A stretch of 50,940 nucleotides of DNA from Deltaproteobacteria bacterium. GTDB taxonomy: Bacteria; Myxococcota_A; UBA9160; SZUA-336. The notes under the pieces are model-generated. The model did no database searches. It had not been told where the DNA came from and saw only the letters and a list, made by a program, of their open reading frames with translations. The DNA lies in assembly GCA_016875225.1 (NCBI GenBank), contig VGRW01000020.1:1-50940 (forward strand), read 5' to 3'. The translations under genes were made by a program, and so were the position numbers. Of the stretch, positions 11,768-18,676 are shown piece by piece (position 1 is the stretch's first letter; each line of letters begins with the position of its first letter).

Positions 11768-11797
11768 TTGACCCGACGGGGTGGCGGCGCAGACACT
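11768..11797 (+). promoter_or_regulatory. Possible promoter giving a leaderless hydrolase transcript
   Basis: TTGACC (11768-11773), an 18-base spacer and GACACT (11792-11797), then 6 bases to the ATG at 11804. No Shine-Dalgarno sequence lies before that ATG. The arrangement matches the one in front of the cyclase gene at 4333. Confidence 0.35.
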
Positions 11798-11803
11798 TGC
11801 CGC

Positions 11804-12700
11804 ATGCCGAAAATCGACGCGAACGGGATCCGGATCGAGTACGACAGCTTCGGGGATCGCGGCGCCGAGCCGCTGCTCCTGGTGATGGGCCTGGGCGGGC
11901 AGATGCTGCTCTGGGAGGACTCGTTCTGCGCGGCGCTCGCCGAGCGCGGTCACTTCGTGGTCCGCTTCGACAACCGCGACATCGGGCTCTCGACCCACTT
12001 CGATTCGCACGGAATCCCCGACCCGATCGCGCTGATGACCGCGGCGGCGAGCGGAGAGCCGGTGTCGGTGCCGTACACGCTCGACGACATGGCCGACGAC
12101 GCGGTCGGGCTCTGCGACGCGCTCGGGATCCGCGACGCCCACTTCGTCGGCGCTTCGATGGGCGGGATGATCGTGCAGACCGTCGCGATCCGGCATCCCG
12201 CGCGCGTGCGCAGCCTGGTCTCGATCATGTCCACGACCGGAAATCCCGCGCTCCCGCCGGCGCGGCCGGAGATCCTCGCGCTGCTGATGAGCCCGCCTCC
12301 GGTCGGACGCGAGGCCGCGATCGACGCCTCGGTCGAGATGTGGCGGAAGATCGGCAGCCCCGGCTTCCCGTTCGACGAAGCGCTGATCCGCACGCGAAGC
12401 GCTCTGCTCTACGACCGCGCGAATCACCCCGCGGGGCAAGCGCGCCAGCTCGCCGCGATCCTGGCGCACGGCAATCGCGCGCCCCGGCTCGCCGACGTCC
12501 GCGCGCCCGCGCTCGTGATCCATGGAACAGACGATCCGCTCGTGCCGGTCGAAGGCGGCCAGGACACGGCGGCCTCGATTCCGGGCGCCGAGCTGCTGCT
12601 GATTCCCGGAATGGGCCACGACATGCCGCGCGCGATCTTCGCGCGGCTCGTGGACGCGATCTCGAGCCACACCCACAAGGCCGCGGTCGCGCGCGCCTAG
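11804..12700 (+). CDS. Alpha/beta-fold hydrolase
   Basis: 298 residues starting MPKIDANGIRIEYDSFG. It shows the hydrolase elbow GASMGGM with nucleophile Ser118, the acid in HGTDDPLVP (Asp243) and the base in GMGHDMP (His272), giving a complete catalytic triad. LLLVMGLGGQ forms the oxyanion-hole strand. The sequence resembles the small esterases and RdmC-like methylesterases of the alpha/beta family; the substrate cannot be assigned. There is no ribosome-binding site, and a TTGAC-type promoter lies immediately upstream. The stop codon TAG shares the four bases CTAG (12697-12700) with the stop of the convergent topoisomerase-helicase gene. Confidence 0.9.
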   Translation: MPKIDANGIRIEYDSFGDRGAEPLLLVMGLGGQMLLWEDSFCAALAERGHFVVRFDNRDIGLSTHFDSHGIPDPIALMTAAASGEPVSVPYTLDDMADDAVGLCDALGIRDAHFVGASMGGMIVQTVAIRHPARVRSLVSIMSTTGNPALPPARPEILALLMSPPPVGREAAIDASVEMWRKIGSPGFPFDEALIRTRSALLYDRANHPAGQARQLAAILAHGNRAPRLADVRAPALVIHGTDDPLVPVEGGQDTAASIPGAELLLIPGMGHDMPRAIFARLVDAISSHTHKAAVARA

Positions 12701-15700
12701 CCGCTCCGAACGATCTCGAGCAGGGCAGGGCCGTATTTCGCGGCGAGCGCCGGGCCGATGCCCTTCACCGCGAGCAGCGCGCGCTCGTCGCGAGGCCGCG
12801 AGGCCGCGATGCCCTGCAGAGCCGCGTTGGTCATGACGCGGAACGCGGGAATCCGGCGGCGCTTCGCCTCGGCGCCGCGCCAGCGCATCAGCGCCCCGAG
12901 GAGCGCGCCGTCCAGGCTCTGATCGGCGTCGGACCCGGGCGCGCTGGCGCCTGCGCTGCCGCGCGCGCGCCTCGTCCGCGCCGGGACGGCCGCGGCATCG
13001 CGCGCGCCAGCGCGGCTCCGGGCGCGGCGCTTGCGCGGCGCGCGCTCCGCCTCGCTCTCGCGCTCGACGCGCACGGCCGCGAGCGCCTCGGCCCCGGCTT
13101 CGAGACCGGCTCGCGTCAGCCGCAGGCGCGAGAACGCGATCGTCTCGCCGTCGCGCTCGAACTCCGCGCTCTCCTCCACCGCGAGCCCTGCGCGCACCAG
13201 CCCCGAAACCAGCCGCCCGAACTCGCTTCGGTCCAGCGCCTCGCCGAACACCTCTCGGTGTAGCTTTCCCGAGGGCTGGCCGTTCCGCGCCCGGAGCGCG
13301 GCGACGATCCGCTCGAGCGCATCGCGCTGGCCCGGGTCGAGCGCGGCGAAGCCGAGCGCCTCGCTGCCCTCGGCGTTGCAGATGTCGCAGATCCCGCACT
13401 CGACGCCGGAGTCCGCCTCGTCGCCGAAGTGGCGCACGAGCTGGAGCATGCGGCAGGCGCGGCTTCCGGCGTAGCGGTGGATCTGCTCGAGCTGCGCCTT
13501 CTTGTGGCGCTGCTGCGCCAGGTACGGCTCGCGCCAACCGTCGCGCCCGCGCGAGGCGTTCTCGTCCGCGTCGACCAGCGCGCCTCCGTGCACCCAGAGC
13601 TTGTCGAGCACGCGCTCGAGCTCGTCGGGGTCCATGCGCAGGCTGCGCTGCAGCTCGGCGCGCGGCGCGGGCGCGGCGCCGAGCGCGCGGTAGACGCGCT
13701 CGAGCACCGCGACGTCGGGATAGTCGCGCGCGAAGAAGTGCTCGTGCGTGCGCAGGTCGACGAAGCCGTGGAAGAGAACCGCGCGCGAGAGCGCGCCGTC
13801 GCGCCCGGCGCGGCCGATCTCCTGGTAGTAGCTCTCGACGCTGCTCGGCAGCGCCGTGTGCACGACCGTGCGCACGTCCGCCTTGTCGATCCCCATGCCG
13901 AAGGCGATCGTGGCGACGATCACCTCGAGCGAGCCGGCCATGAAGCGGCGCTGCACCTCGTCGCGCTCGCGCGCGGGCATTCCCGCGTGATACGCGGCGG
14001 CGCGGAAGCTGCGGTCGAGCCGGGACGCGAGAAGCTCGGCCTTCTTGCGCGTCGGCGCGTAGACGATCGCGGGCCGGCGAGCGGGCGAGCGCAGCAGCCG
14101 CTCGCAGGCGGCGTCCCGCGCAGACGGCTTCGCCTCGACGAGCTCGATCGCGATGTTCGTGCGCCGGAAGCCGTGGATGTAGCGATGCGCCTTGTCGATC
14201 CCGAGCTGCGCGACGATGTCGCGCTGCACCAGCGGCGTGGCCGTCGCGGTCAGCGCGATGATCGGCGCGGGCCGCAGCGCCGGCAGGCGCTCGCGCAGCA
14301 TGCGGTACTCGGGCCGGAAGTCGTGCCCCCACTGCGAGATGCAGTGCGCCTCGTCGACCGCGACCAGCGCCGGCGTGCGCTGCGCCAGCTTCTCGGGGAA
14401 GCCAGGCACCGCCAGCCGCTCCGGCGCGATGAACAGGTAGTCGAGCTTCCCGTCGAGGTACGCGCGGAGCACCGCCTGCGACTCGGCGCGCGCGCGTCCG
14501 GAGTGGATCCGCTCGGCGCGAAGCCCCTGCGCCTGCAGCTTGGCGACCTGGTCGTCCATCAGCGCGATCAGCGGAGAGACGACCAGCGTCGTGCCGCCGC
14601 GCGCGAGCCCGGGAAGCTGGTAGCAGAGCGACTTTCCCGCGCCGGTCGGCATCACGAGCAGGGCGTCACCGCCGAGTGTCACCGACCGGCAGACCTCTTC
14701 CTGGAACGGGCGGAAGCTCTCGAAGCCGAAGCGGCGCCCGAGCAAGCCGAGCAGCTGGTCGGGCGCGGTCGCCGTCTGCGGCGCGTCGCGCTCGCGCTCG
14801 AAGGCGAACGGAAGCTGCGGCGCCGCGGCCGCCGGCCGTTCGGTCCGCACGCGCTTCACCACGTCGCTCACGTACGTCTCGATGTCGCGCATGAAGCTGT
14901 CGAGATCGCCCGAGCCGCGCTGGATGCGCTCGAGCCGCGCCTCCCACTGCCCGGTCATCAGCGGGCTCTTCACGTCGGGATGCACGATCTCGATCAGCTC
15001 CACGCCCTTGTCCGTCGCCGCGAGGGACTTTCCGTCGCGCGTGATGTACTTGCGCTCGAGCAGCGTCTCGATGATCGAAGCGCGCGTCGCCGGCGTCCCC
15101 AGGCCGGTCTCGCGCATCGCCTCGGAGAGCTCGCGGTCTTCGAGCGTGCGGCCCGCGGTCTCCATCGCCGTGAGCAGCGTCGCCTCGGTCAGGCGCCGGG
15201 GAGGGCGCGTGCGCTTGCGCTCGGCCCGGGCGTCGACGACGTCCTGCGGCTGTCCCGGCGCGAGCCCCGGGGGCAGGAGCGGCTCGGAGTCCGCGCTCTG
15301 CGCGCCCTCGAGCGCGCGCCAGCCGAGCGTCACGACGGCGCTTCCCTGGCTGCGATAGCGGTCGACGATCGGCGTCGGCTCCGAGCTCGTGATCGCGGTG
15401 ACGACGGTCGTGGTCGCGTAGACGTGATCCGCGTGCCAGGCCGCGAGCAGGCGCCGCGCGACCAGATCGAAGAGCCGCGCCTCGTCGGCGGAGAGGCCGG
15501 CCTTCTCGGGCGATTGCCCGGTCGGGATGATCGCGTGGTGGTCGCTCACCCGGGCGTCGTCGACGAAGCGCGGGCCGAGCGGCCGCTCGCCGGCTCCGGG
15601 CGCGAGCTGCTCGCGATACGGTCCGGAGATGGCGCTCGCGATCCTCGGCAGCGTAGCCGCGACCGACTTCGAGAGGTGCCGGCTGTCCGTGCGCGGGTAG

Positions 15701-16710
15701 GAGAGCAGCTTCTTCGACTCGTACAGGCTCTGCGCGACCTCGAGCGTGCGCGTCGCGCTCCAGCCGAAGATCCGGTTCGCCGCGCGCTGCAGCTCGGTCA
15801 GGTCGTAGAGCTGGGGCGGCGGGAGCCTGCGCCGCTGGGCCTCGACCGATTCGATCGCGGCGCGACCCGAACGCGCGCGCGCGACGATCCGCTCCGCCTC
15901 CTCGCCGTCGGCGGGCAGACGCCGCGCGAGCTCAAGGGTCTCGGGCTCGGCGCCGGGCGCGCCGGGGCGGAACCAGGTGCCGCGGTGGCCCGGCGCCGTC
16001 TCGGGCGCTCCGTGCGCTCGGAAGTCGGCGACCACCTCGACGTAGTCCTCGGGAACGAAGGACCGGATCGCGAGCTCGCGCTCGACCAGGATCGCCAGCG
16101 TCGGCGTCTGCACGCGCCCGACCGAGAGCAGCTCGCCGTGCGACGACGAGCGACGCAACAGCGTGTAGGCGCGCGAGAGGTTCATGCCGACCAGCCAGTC
16201 GGCGCGGCTGCGCCCGCGCGCGGCATCGGCCAGGCCGTCGACCTCCGACTGCGGGCGCAGTCCGGCCAGCCCCGCGCGGATCGCGTCGGGCGTGAGCGAG
16301 GAGATCCAGAGCCGCTCGACCGGCTTGGCCGCGCGCGGCGCGGCCAGCCCCGCGGCCTCCCAGATGTAGCGGAAGATCAGCTCGCCCTCTCGGCCTGCGT
16401 CCGTCGCGCAGATCACGCGCTCGACCTCGGGGTCGGCCAGGATCCGCCGCACGATCTCGAACTGGCTCTTCGTCTTCTCGTAGACCACGAGCGGCCAGCG
16501 CTCCGGGATCATCGGCAGCAGCGTCTGGCGCCAGGCGCGCCACTCGGGTCGGATCTCGTGCGGCTGCGCGAGCGCCACCAGGTGCCCGATCGCCCAGGTG
16601 ACGACGTAGCCGTTTCCGCGCAGGCAGCCGTCGCCGCGCGTTCCGGCGCCCAGCACTCGCGCGATGTCGCGCGCGACCGAGGGCTTCTCAGCGACGACCG
16701 CTATGCTCAT
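12697..16710 (-). CDS. Natural fusion: DNA topoisomerase III - RecQ helicase - HRDC
   Basis: 1337 residues in one frame without interruption. Residues 1 to about 625 are a type IA topoisomerase of the TopB kind: SIAVVAEKPSVA start, Toprim DAGREGE (104-110) and active-site Tyr338 in LLSYPRTDS. Residues about 650-1180 are RecQ: Walker A MPTGAGKS (687-694), DEAH box 786-789, TATATP, QEIGRAGRDG and the Cys-rich zinc site ending CGICDIC. After a basic low-complexity linker, an HRDC-like domain ends the chain (RDERALLAVKGIGPALAAKYG). RecQ/BLM/Sgs1 helicases and topoisomerase III act together to dissolve double Holliday junctions and undo recombination intermediates; here both are covalently joined. 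All catalytic motifs look intact. It is a monocistronic gene, convergent with the hydrolase. Confidence 0.95.
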   Translation of the reverse strand: MSIAVVAEKPSVARDIARVLGAGTRGDGCLRGNGYVVTWAIGHLVALAQPHEIRPEWRAWRQTLLPMIPERWPLVVYEKTKSQFEIVRRILADPEVERVICATDAGREGELIFRYIWEAAGLAAPRAAKPVERLWISSLTPDAIRAGLAGLRPQSEVDGLADAARGRSRADWLVGMNLSRAYTLLRRSSSHGELLSVGRVQTPTLAILVERELAIRSFVPEDYVEVVADFRAHGAPETAPGHRGTWFRPGAPGAEPETLELARRLPADGEEAERIVARARSGRAAIESVEAQRRRLPPPQLYDLTELQRAANRIFGWSATRTLEVAQSLYESKKLLSYPRTDSRHLSKSVAATLPRIASAISGPYREQLAPGAGERPLGPRFVDDARVSDHHAIIPTGQSPEKAGLSADEARLFDLVARRLLAAWHADHVYATTTVVTAITSSEPTPIVDRYRSQGSAVVTLGWRALEGAQSADSEPLLPPGLAPGQPQDVVDARAERKRTRPPRRLTEATLLTAMETAGRTLEDRELSEAMRETGLGTPATRASIIETLLERKYITRDGKSLAATDKGVELIEIVHPDVKSPLMTGQWEARLERIQRGSGDLDSFMRDIETYVSDVVKRVRTERPAAAAPQLPFAFERERDAPQTATAPDQLLGLLGRRFGFESFRPFQEEVCRSVTLGGDALLVMPTGAGKSLCYQLPGLARGGTTLVVSPLIALMDDQVAKLQAQGLRAERIHSGRARAESQAVLRAYLDGKLDYLFIAPERLAVPGFPEKLAQRTPALVAVDEAHCISQWGHDFRPEYRMLRERLPALRPAPIIALTATATPLVQRDIVAQLGIDKAHRYIHGFRRTNIAIELVEAKPSARDAACERLLRSPARRPAIVYAPTRKKAELLASRLDRSFRAAAYHAGMPARERDEVQRRFMAGSLEVIVATIAFGMGIDKADVRTVVHTALPSSVESYYQEIGRAGRDGALSRAVLFHGFVDLRTHEHFFARDYPDVAVLERVYRALGAAPAPRAELQRSLRMDPDELERVLDKLWVHGGALVDADENASRGRDGWREPYLAQQRHKKAQLEQIHRYAGSRACRMLQLVRHFGDEADSGVECGICDICNAEGSEALGFAALDPGQRDALERIVAALRARNGQPSGKLHREVFGEALDRSEFGRLVSGLVRAGLAVEESAEFERDGETIAFSRLRLTRAGLEAGAEALAAVRVERESEAERAPRKRRARSRAGARDAAAVPARTRRARGSAGASAPGSDADQSLDGALLGALMRWRGAEAKRRRIPAFRVMTNAALQGIAASRPRDERALLAVKGIGPALAAKYGPALLEIVRSG

Positions 16711-16822: not shown

Positions 16823-18676
16823 ATGCGATGGCAGGGCACGCTCGCTGCAGCAGCGCTCCTCGCGCTGGTGGCGGTGTCGTTCGCGCCGGCTGCGCGTCTC
16901 GGCTTCGTCTACGACGACCACGAGCTGATCGTGGACCGCGAGGCGCCGCGCGGCCTCGAGATCGCGCGGGTCTTCGCGGAGCGGCACTGGCCGACGCTGC
17001 CGTACTACCGGCCGATTCCGCGCGCCAGCATGCTGGCGCAGAAGGCCGTGCACGGCGACGACCCCGCGCCGTACCATGTGGCCAACGTGTTGCTCGCTGC
17101 CGCGGTTGCGCTCGCGGCGCTCGCGCTGCTGCGAACCGCGGCGTTCGGGCTCACGTGGCCGCTCGCGCTCGCGGGCGCCTCGCTCTTCGCGCTGCACCCG
17201 ATCGCGTCCTCGTGCGTCTACCCGATCGCGTCGGGTCGCGAGACACTCTGGCCGACGTTCTTCGAGATCCTGGCGGTGATCGCGTACTTGCGGCCGCGCG
17301 GGCCTTCGCTTGGCCTCTGTCTCGCCGCGACCGGGGCCGCGCTGCTCTCGAAGGAGCACGCGGTGGTTCTGCCGCTGGTCTTCGTGGCGGCGGATCTCCT
17401 GGGCTTGTCGCGCGCGCCACGGCGCGAACCGTTGGCGTGGCTGCGCCGCCACGCGCGGTTCGCGCTGCTCGTGCTCGGCTACTTCGGCGTTCGCCAGCTG
17501 ATCTTCGCGGGCGAGCCTCGCGCCGAGCTCGCGCTGCTCTCGCAGCCGTTCGGGCCGCTGCTCTCGTTCGGCTACGCGCTGCAGGTCTTCTTCGCTCCGA
17601 CGCGCGATCTGGTCTACGAGCCGATCGCCGCGGTCTGGATCTCGCCGGTTCGGCTCGCGCTGGCGCTCGCCGCGAGCGCCGCGATCGGCCTCGGAATCGC
17701 CGCGCGCGATCCGGACGCGCAGCGCCGTGGTCTCTTCTGGCTGGCCTGGATCGCGCTCGGGCTGCTCCCGACCGCCAACGTCTTCGTCCAGGACGCGCGC
17801 TTCGACGAGCGCTACGTGTTCTTCTCGTCTCTCGGGCTCGTCGCGCTCGCGCTCACCGCGCTCGAGCCGCTCGGCCGGGCGCGCACGGGGCGCGCGATCA
17901 CGGCCGTCGGGCTCGCCGCCGGGATCGCGACTGCCGCGACCGTGAGCATCGAGCGAGCGAGCGCCTTCGCCGACGACGCGGCGTTCCTGGCGCGCTGGAT
18001 CGAGAGCGATCCCGAGCGCGCGCAGCCGCACCTCTCGCTCGGCAAGCTCGCCTACCGGGCCGGGGACTGGGCGGCAGCGATCGCGCACTTCGAGGCCGCG
18101 CTGGCGCGTTCACCCGAGCTCGCGGATGCGCACAATGGCCTGGGTCTGGCGCAGGAGGCCCTGGGTCGGATCGACCTGGCGGAGCAGCACTTCGCGCGCG
18201 CGATCGAGCTCGATCCCGCAAACGGCGCCGCGCACAACGACCTGGGCGTGCTCTACCTGGGGCGCGGCGAGCTCGCGCGCTCCGAGGCCGAGTTCGAGGC
18301 CGCGCTCGCCGGACGCGGCGATCACACCAGCGCGCGGATCAATCTGGCGCTGGTGCACGCGCGCGCGGGGGACCGTGCGACGGCGATCGCGGAGCTCGAG
18401 CAGGTGCTCGCCGCGCGTCCCGGTCACGCAGGGGCGTGTTTCAACCTCGGCATGCTCCTCGTCGACGCGGGCGACGACGCGCGCGCTCTCCCCTACCTGG
18501 AGCGCGCGGTCGATGCGCGCCCCGACTACGCGATCGCGCGCTTCCGGCTCGGCATCGCGCTGGTGCGACTCGGACGCGCGGGCGACGCAGAGACGGAACT
18601 CCGGCGCGCGCTCGAGCTCGACGCGTCGCTCGACGGAGCGCGAAGCGCGCTCGCCCAGCTCGGCGCGCAGCCCTGA
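16823..18676 (+). CDS. TMTC-like polytopic membrane glycosyltransferase (GT-C) with C-terminal TPR repeats
   Basis: 617 residues. About ten hydrophobic segments occupy residues 5-380. The first large loop carries FVYDDHELIVD with an acidic pair (Asp31, Asp32), as in GT-C enzymes where it binds lipid-linked sugar or metal. LHPIASSCVYPIASGRE and LLSKEHAVVLPL are typical of the TMTC/PMT-like family. From about residue 395 there are six or more TPR units (AQPHLSLGKLAYRAGDWAAA and similar), probably periplasmic. Eukaryotic TMTC proteins O-mannosylate target proteins; a protein O-glycosyltransferase role here is inference. A TACCCT hexamer at 16810-16815 ends 7 bases before the ATG and there is no good ribosome-binding site. 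The neighbours do not suggest a substrate. Confidence 0.8.
   Translation: MRWQGTLAAAALLALVAVSFAPAARLGFVYDDHELIVDREAPRGLEIARVFAERHWPTLPYYRPIPRASMLAQKAVHGDDPAPYHVANVLLAAAVALAALALLRTAAFGLTWPLALAGASLFALHPIASSCVYPIASGRETLWPTFFEILAVIAYLRPRGPSLGLCLAATGAALLSKEHAVVLPLVFVAADLLGLSRAPRREPLAWLRRHARFALLVLGYFGVRQLIFAGEPRAELALLSQPFGPLLSFGYALQVFFAPTRDLVYEPIAAVWISPVRLALALAASAAIGLGIAARDPDAQRRGLFWLAWIALGLLPTANVFVQDARFDERYVFFSSLGLVALALTALEPLGRARTGRAITAVGLAAGIATAATVSIERASAFADDAAFLARWIESDPERAQPHLSLGKLAYRAGDWAAAIAHFEAALARSPELADAHNGLGLAQEALGRIDLAEQHFARAIELDPANGAAHNDLGVLYLGRGELARSEAEFEAALAGRGDHTSARINLALVHARAGDRATAIAELEQVLAARPGHAGACFNLGMLLVDAGDDARALPYLERAVDARPDYAIARFRLGIALVRLGRAGDAETELRRALELDASLDGARSALAQLGAQP

Follow-up and report, generated by a model that had tools for sequence, protein, structure and literature searches.

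A TopB-RecQ fusion protein in two bacterial phyla, a candidate single-chain RecQ-topoisomerase III dissolvase

Do bacterial RecQ helicases and topoisomerase III act as a unit? This has been disputed for two decades, and the question is posed in a new form by a gene found in the window, i.e. the whole 50,940-nucleotide stretch of deltaproteobacterial DNA analyzed here, in which both enzymes are encoded as one polypeptide. The preliminary description of this DNA, made from the letters alone, had assumed that the two enzymes cooperate in bacteria. As far as E. coli is concerned, this holds in part: in vitro, RecQ does stimulate topoisomerase III, yet a physical interaction between the two has not been observed, and the genetic data are contested (PMC7140829, PMC13244152).

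The open reading frame is uninterrupted, and all six of its Pfam domains (Toprim, Topoisom_bac, DEAD, Helicase_C, RecQ_Zn_bind and HRDC) score above their cut-offs. Pfam and NCBIfam thereby bear out that topoisomerase III, RecQ and HRDC share one chain, on the minus strand, and the Toprim domain, Tyr338, Walker A, DEAH and HRDC that had been described as intact are all present by Pfam and alignment (Table 1).

Table 1. Features of the TopB-RecQ fusion gene, in window coordinates.
Feature	Position	Strand	Details
TopB-RecQ fusion gene	12697..16710	-	1337 aa; ATG at 16710; stop codon 12697-12699
Toprim domain, residues 5-138	16297..16698	-	Pfam; catalytic Glu8, Lys9, Asp104, Glu108
Topoisom_bac (type IA topoisomerase core, TopB type), residues 158-607	14890..16239	-	Pfam
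Active-site Tyr338 within YPRTDS motif	15697..15699	-	Alignment; corresponds to E. coli TopB Tyr328
Low-complexity linker, about residues 626-645	14776..14835	-	~21 aa
RecQ helicase domain 1 (DEAD), residues 667-825	14236..14712	-	Pfam; Walker A Lys693, DEAH 786-789, aromatic-rich loop S792-Y802
RecQ helicase domain 2 (Helicase_C), residues 869-972	13795..14106	-	Pfam; motif VI Arg967, Arg970
Helicase_C-to-zinc interval, residues 973-1064	13519..13794	-	Alignment; ~90 residues, exceeds its E. coli RecQ counterpart
RecQ_Zn_bind, residues 1065-1112	13375..13518	-	Pfam PF16124, above cut-off; Cys1086/1105/1108/1111
HRDC, residues 1269-1334	12709..12906	-	Pfam PF00570, 65 bits

The topoisomerase half reaches 650 bits against the NCBIfam model for DNA topoisomerase 3 (NF005829, cut-off 597) and 562 bits against TIGR01056 (cut-off 516), and shares 35% identity with E. 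coli TopB across ~610 aa. The helicase half scores 394 bits against the RecQ-family model TIGR00614 (cut-off 219.8) and 469 bits against TIGR01389, the canonical bacterial RecQ equivalog, which is below the cut-off of 640. It is a member of the RecQ family and not a canonical RecQ equivalog, with a core that is 48% identical to E. coli RecQ. No Pfam match to an RQC winged-helix domain was obtained at E 0.001, though some 100 residues, a suitable length, are present, and the interval between Helicase_C and the zinc-binding domain possibly comprises an extra winged-helix-like insert. Among the PDB matches listed, no single chain covered both halves; those to the topoisomerase half were topoisomerases and reverse gyrase, while all 60 listed for the RecQ profile were helicases.

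At its 3' end the gene shares four bases (12697-12700) with the 3' end of a convergent alpha/beta-hydrolase-like ORF (11768-12700, plus strand), and upstream a divergent ORF for a TPR protein begins at 16823. Given these neighbors, it is apparently a monocistronic gene. In-frame candidate starts from which the RecQ half could be released separately (TTG 656, GTG 677, GTG 686 and ATG 687) lie at or just ahead of Walker A, and inspection by eye revealed no convincing ribosome-binding site for any of them.

The expectation that related bacteria have similar fusions was confirmed by homologue searches and trees, which extend the family to two phyla and point to a single origin. At least 49 complete fusions were read in all, namely that of the window, one in a lake Acidobacteria MAG (L012) and 47 others, while a further few end at contig edges. 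In the class of the window, 13 of the 59 sampled genomes have the fusion, including one (G058) with the gene split over two contigs. The sample of the window's phylum, probably Myxococcota (377 genomes), contains at least 42 complete fusions in addition to G058, from at least 11 families, and that of a second, Acidobacteria-containing phylum (297 genomes) contains complete fusions in the lake MAG and six more genomes. With so patchy a distribution, both in the class and in the phylum (at least about 43 of 377), the fusion is not essential to the lineage, and horizontal transfer may contribute to its scattered occurrence in two phyla. Plasmids gave 337 records matching the fusion, none over 80% of the query and the best to the topoisomerase half alone, and no fusion was seen among them. 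Viral contigs yielded only RecQ relatives with no adjoining topoisomerase III match, which leaves an origin from mobile elements unsupported.

The topoisomerase halves of the fusions form one clade with a support of 100, both in a first tree (45 rows in the clade) and in a larger one (55 rows), and no intact stand-alone topoisomerase falls within it in either tree. Each of the 55 rows is either a fusion, one of two degenerate fusions, or an ORF running off the contig end. In the RecQ tree, the sister group of the fused clade consists of stand-alone Acidobacteria RecQs (L015-L018), and two further stand-alone RecQs with HRDC, L013 (1879-3993) and L014 (5917-7983), are nested within the fused clade; these are best read as cases of later loss of the topoisomerase half. 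Since every topoisomerase half belongs to a single fully supported clade without intact stand-alone members, the simplest account of the trees is one fusion event with partial losses afterwards.

The topoisomerase halves have diverged down to about 47-52% identity. E8, K9, D104, E108, Y338 and R340 are invariant in 43 out of 43 aligned fusions, as are K693, D786, E787, R967, R970 and the four zinc-binding cysteines of the RecQ half in 42 out of 42. The position of E. coli Asp105 is Gly throughout the fusions, and likewise in L001, a stand-alone topoisomerase of the window genome. Also retained is the aromatic-rich loop, which in RecQ couples ATP hydrolysis to unwinding. Where E. coli has its decatenation loop (around residues 241-255), the alignment places a loop of comparable length, without sequence conservation.

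Far less constant is what lies between and behind the catalytic parts. The linker varies between 16 and 281 aa, mostly composed of A, P, G, S, T, E, Q, D, R and K, the longest being the 281 low-complexity residues of L272 (G363). A low-complexity linker of such variable length makes rigid coupling unlikely, and the two halves are probably flexibly tethered. An HMM made from the HRDC of the window fusion and applied to 43 fusions detected this domain in 31; two of the other 12 run off the contig end, and ten are complete fusions without HRDC (L180, L186, L262, L264, L265, L266, L268, L274, L280 and L294). Most of these ten have Lys/Arg-rich C-terminal tails that may bind DNA in its stead. In L304 (1378-4071) and L308 (1435-4059), the topoisomerase half is followed by no more than the first RecA-like domain, in degenerate form and with EEAE in place of DEAH, and then a stop; judged by their sequences, these are decayed fusions in which the topoisomerase half persists. 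The suggestion in the preliminary description that the fusion makes strand passage obligatory is not supported, in view of the variable linker, the ten losses of HRDC, the two decayed RecQ halves and the free L013 and L014, whereas the 1:1 stoichiometry that it also proposed follows directly from the covalent link.

As contig 20 of 182, the window belongs to an assembly of 3.87 Mb (97.8% complete), in which only two type IA topoisomerases were identified, the fusion and L001 (G000 contig 21:21538-23466), neither of which attains the TopA cut-off. L001 is a 920-aa topoisomerase III-type enzyme with Toprim_Crpt repeats, of the PRK08173/PRK14724-like kind; its TopB-type core is 41% identical to the topoisomerase half of the fusion, but it stands alone, has C-terminal repeats in place of RecQ, and belongs to a separate clade. 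Two RecQ-family proteins are likewise above cut-off, the fusion and L004 (G000 contig 9, 976-2991), a 672-aa frame without HRDC and with a long Arg-rich, low-complexity N-terminus. Separate relatives of both halves, the presence of which had been put forward as a check, are consequently found alongside the fusion, and most relatives of the window genome are fusion-free. If separate enzymes being the rule is held against the fusion, this applies only in part, as L001 and L004 fall in clades other than that of the fusion in the topoisomerase and RecQ trees, i.e. they represent other subfamilies.

In the family of the window and a number of its sister families (L001, L161-L172), the sole type IA enzyme found besides the fusion is a topoisomerase III-type protein of ~950 aa with Toprim_Crpt repeats. 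These families appear, in draft genomes, to be without TopA, while topoisomerase I has been reviewed as present in all bacteria (PMC7140829). Another family of the same class (f3; L152-L160 and others) harbors instead a TopA with an identity of 63-67% to that of E. coli over ~875 residues, which is unusually high for so distant a class, possibly as a result of horizontal transfer.

Canonical RecQ is scarce where the fusion occurs. Counting as full-length those with a profile coverage reaching about position 450 or beyond, we found canonical RecQ in the draft assemblies of 5 of the 13 class genomes with the fusion versus 42 of the 46 without it (Fisher p = 2e-4, shared ancestry ignored). For genomes that are at least 85% complete, the numbers are 3 out of 10 versus 37 out of 38 (p = 1e-5, again ignoring shared ancestry). 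Two members of one genus (g8) show opposite states, canonical RecQ being absent from G010, which has the fusion, and present in G008, which does not. Together, this scarcity and this contrast suggest that the fusion frequently replaces RecQ in function.

From these data we consider it fairly probable that the fusion acts as a covalent RecQ-topoisomerase III 'dissolvase', which would correspond to Sgs1/BLM-Top3 in a single chain. The C-terminal RecQ motor would unwind or branch-migrate joined DNA, such as double Holliday junctions, converging forks and precatenanes, and thereby expose single strands; the flexible linker would keep the N-terminal topoisomerase III within a few nanometers, where it would cut one strand via Tyr338, pass a second strand and reseal. 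Both halves would have to be active, and on one DNA molecule, with the dissolution of junctions as their main task over other hemicatenane-type substrates. This reading draws on the family cut-offs passed, the invariant catalytic residues, the single topoisomerase clade, the scarcity of canonical RecQ and a precedent from yeast, where Top3-Sgs1 fusions engineered by Bennett and Wang (2001) reportedly were functional. Speaking against it are the patchy occurrence of the fusion, the loss of HRDC in some members, an RQC domain that escapes Pfam, and the findings in E. coli (PMC7140829). The variable linker would, in this case, provide a high local concentration instead of a rigid machine.

Different explanations deserve consideration. 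The least credible is that the fusion is an artefact of a frameshift, a missed stop or a chimeric contig. The preliminary description had named an error near residue 630-650 as a possible refutation, and the window assembly is indeed fragmented. GC by codon position is however steady over the junction, with 0.92-0.96 at the third position in blocks covering residues 501-800, and the same in-frame fusion is found in 48 other genomes, in one case inside a contig of 13,235,919 bp, from a phylum-sample genome that consists of two contigs; these independent genomes rule out an assembly artefact. Very improbable, too, is a mode of action like that of reverse gyrase, the textbook case of an SF2 ATPase fused to a type IA topoisomerase (PMC8185306), with ATP use by the helicase half directly driving supercoiling or gating of the topoisomerase half in one rigid machine. 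The order of the halves is the opposite, with the topoisomerase first, the helicase is a full RecQ with zinc-binding domain and usually HRDC, the score against the reverse gyrase model (TIGR01054) is 102.7 bits where 471.7 are needed, and neither the linker lengths nor the decay of the helicase half in two relatives agree with tight coupling.

The flexible, variable linker, the decayed helicase halves of L304 and L308, and the free RecQs inside the fused clade are, on the other hand, what one would expect if the two enzymes worked independently and the covalent link served for co-expression only. We find this improbable, as the link has been retained across deep divergence in at least 49 genomes, and the fused clade is without any intact free topoisomerase half. 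A somewhat stronger competitor, albeit still an unlikely one, is that the fusion mainly clears precatenanes or unlinks converging replication forks, and not recombination junctions. In vitro work with purified E. coli RecQ and topoisomerase III showed the resolution of converging forks (Suski and Marians 2008, as cited in PMC13244152), and topoisomerase III of E. coli works at forks and not in recombination (PMC7140829). That no TopA-type enzyme was found in the window genome also agrees with such a role. Sequence gives no means of distinguishing between the substrates. RecQ with HRDC is classically associated with junction substrates, yet the ten complete fusions mentioned above do without this domain.

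Returning to the dissolvase, a wider proposal, which we put forward tentatively and regard as possible but doubtful, is that the fusion is an ancient single-chain bacterial enzyme of this kind that displaced canonical RecQ, and that in the window's family, without topoisomerase I, free and RecQ-fused topoisomerase III-type enzymes would cover all type IA functions as a natural 'toposome'. If true, this would be a toposome such as E. coli has been argued to lack. Independently of this, a natural fusion maintained over deep divergence constitutes strong evolutionary 'Rosetta stone' evidence for RecQ and topoisomerase III as a unit, at least in these phyla. It also offers a single-component system for dissecting dissolution by separate mutation of helicase and topoisomerase, with no need for assembling Sgs1-Top3-Rmi1, and the usual lack of canonical RecQ together with the apparent lack of TopA makes the division of labor among type IA enzymes testable.

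No description of a TopB-RecQ fusion was found in the open literature searched, subscription papers being outside the search. Both families, as well as SF2-topoisomerase IA fusions in the form of reverse gyrase (PMC8185306), are already known, and it is their combination as TopB-RecQ that is apparently undescribed in the open literature. Like the fusion, reverse gyrase links an SF2 ATPase to a type IA topoisomerase within a single chain, but it has the helicase first, a non-RecQ ATPase, and a tight coupling that introduces positive supercoils. The proposed toposome of E. coli comprises the same two families as the fusion, although as separate polypeptides without observed physical interaction (PMC7140829, PMC13244152). 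Similarly, the dissolvasomes Sgs1-Top3-Rmi1 of yeast and BLM-TOP3A-RMI1/2 of humans combine a RecQ-family helicase bearing HRDC with a topoisomerase III-type enzyme. Pfam identified no Rmi1 (OB-fold) domain in the fusion chain, which differs also in being of the bacterial TopB type and in forming one covalent chain. Yet the placement is the same: the disordered N-terminus of yeast Sgs1 binds Top3/Rmi1 (PMC3905885), and in the Sgs1/BLM dissolvasome, as in the fusion, the topoisomerase sits on the N-terminal side of the helicase via a flexible region.
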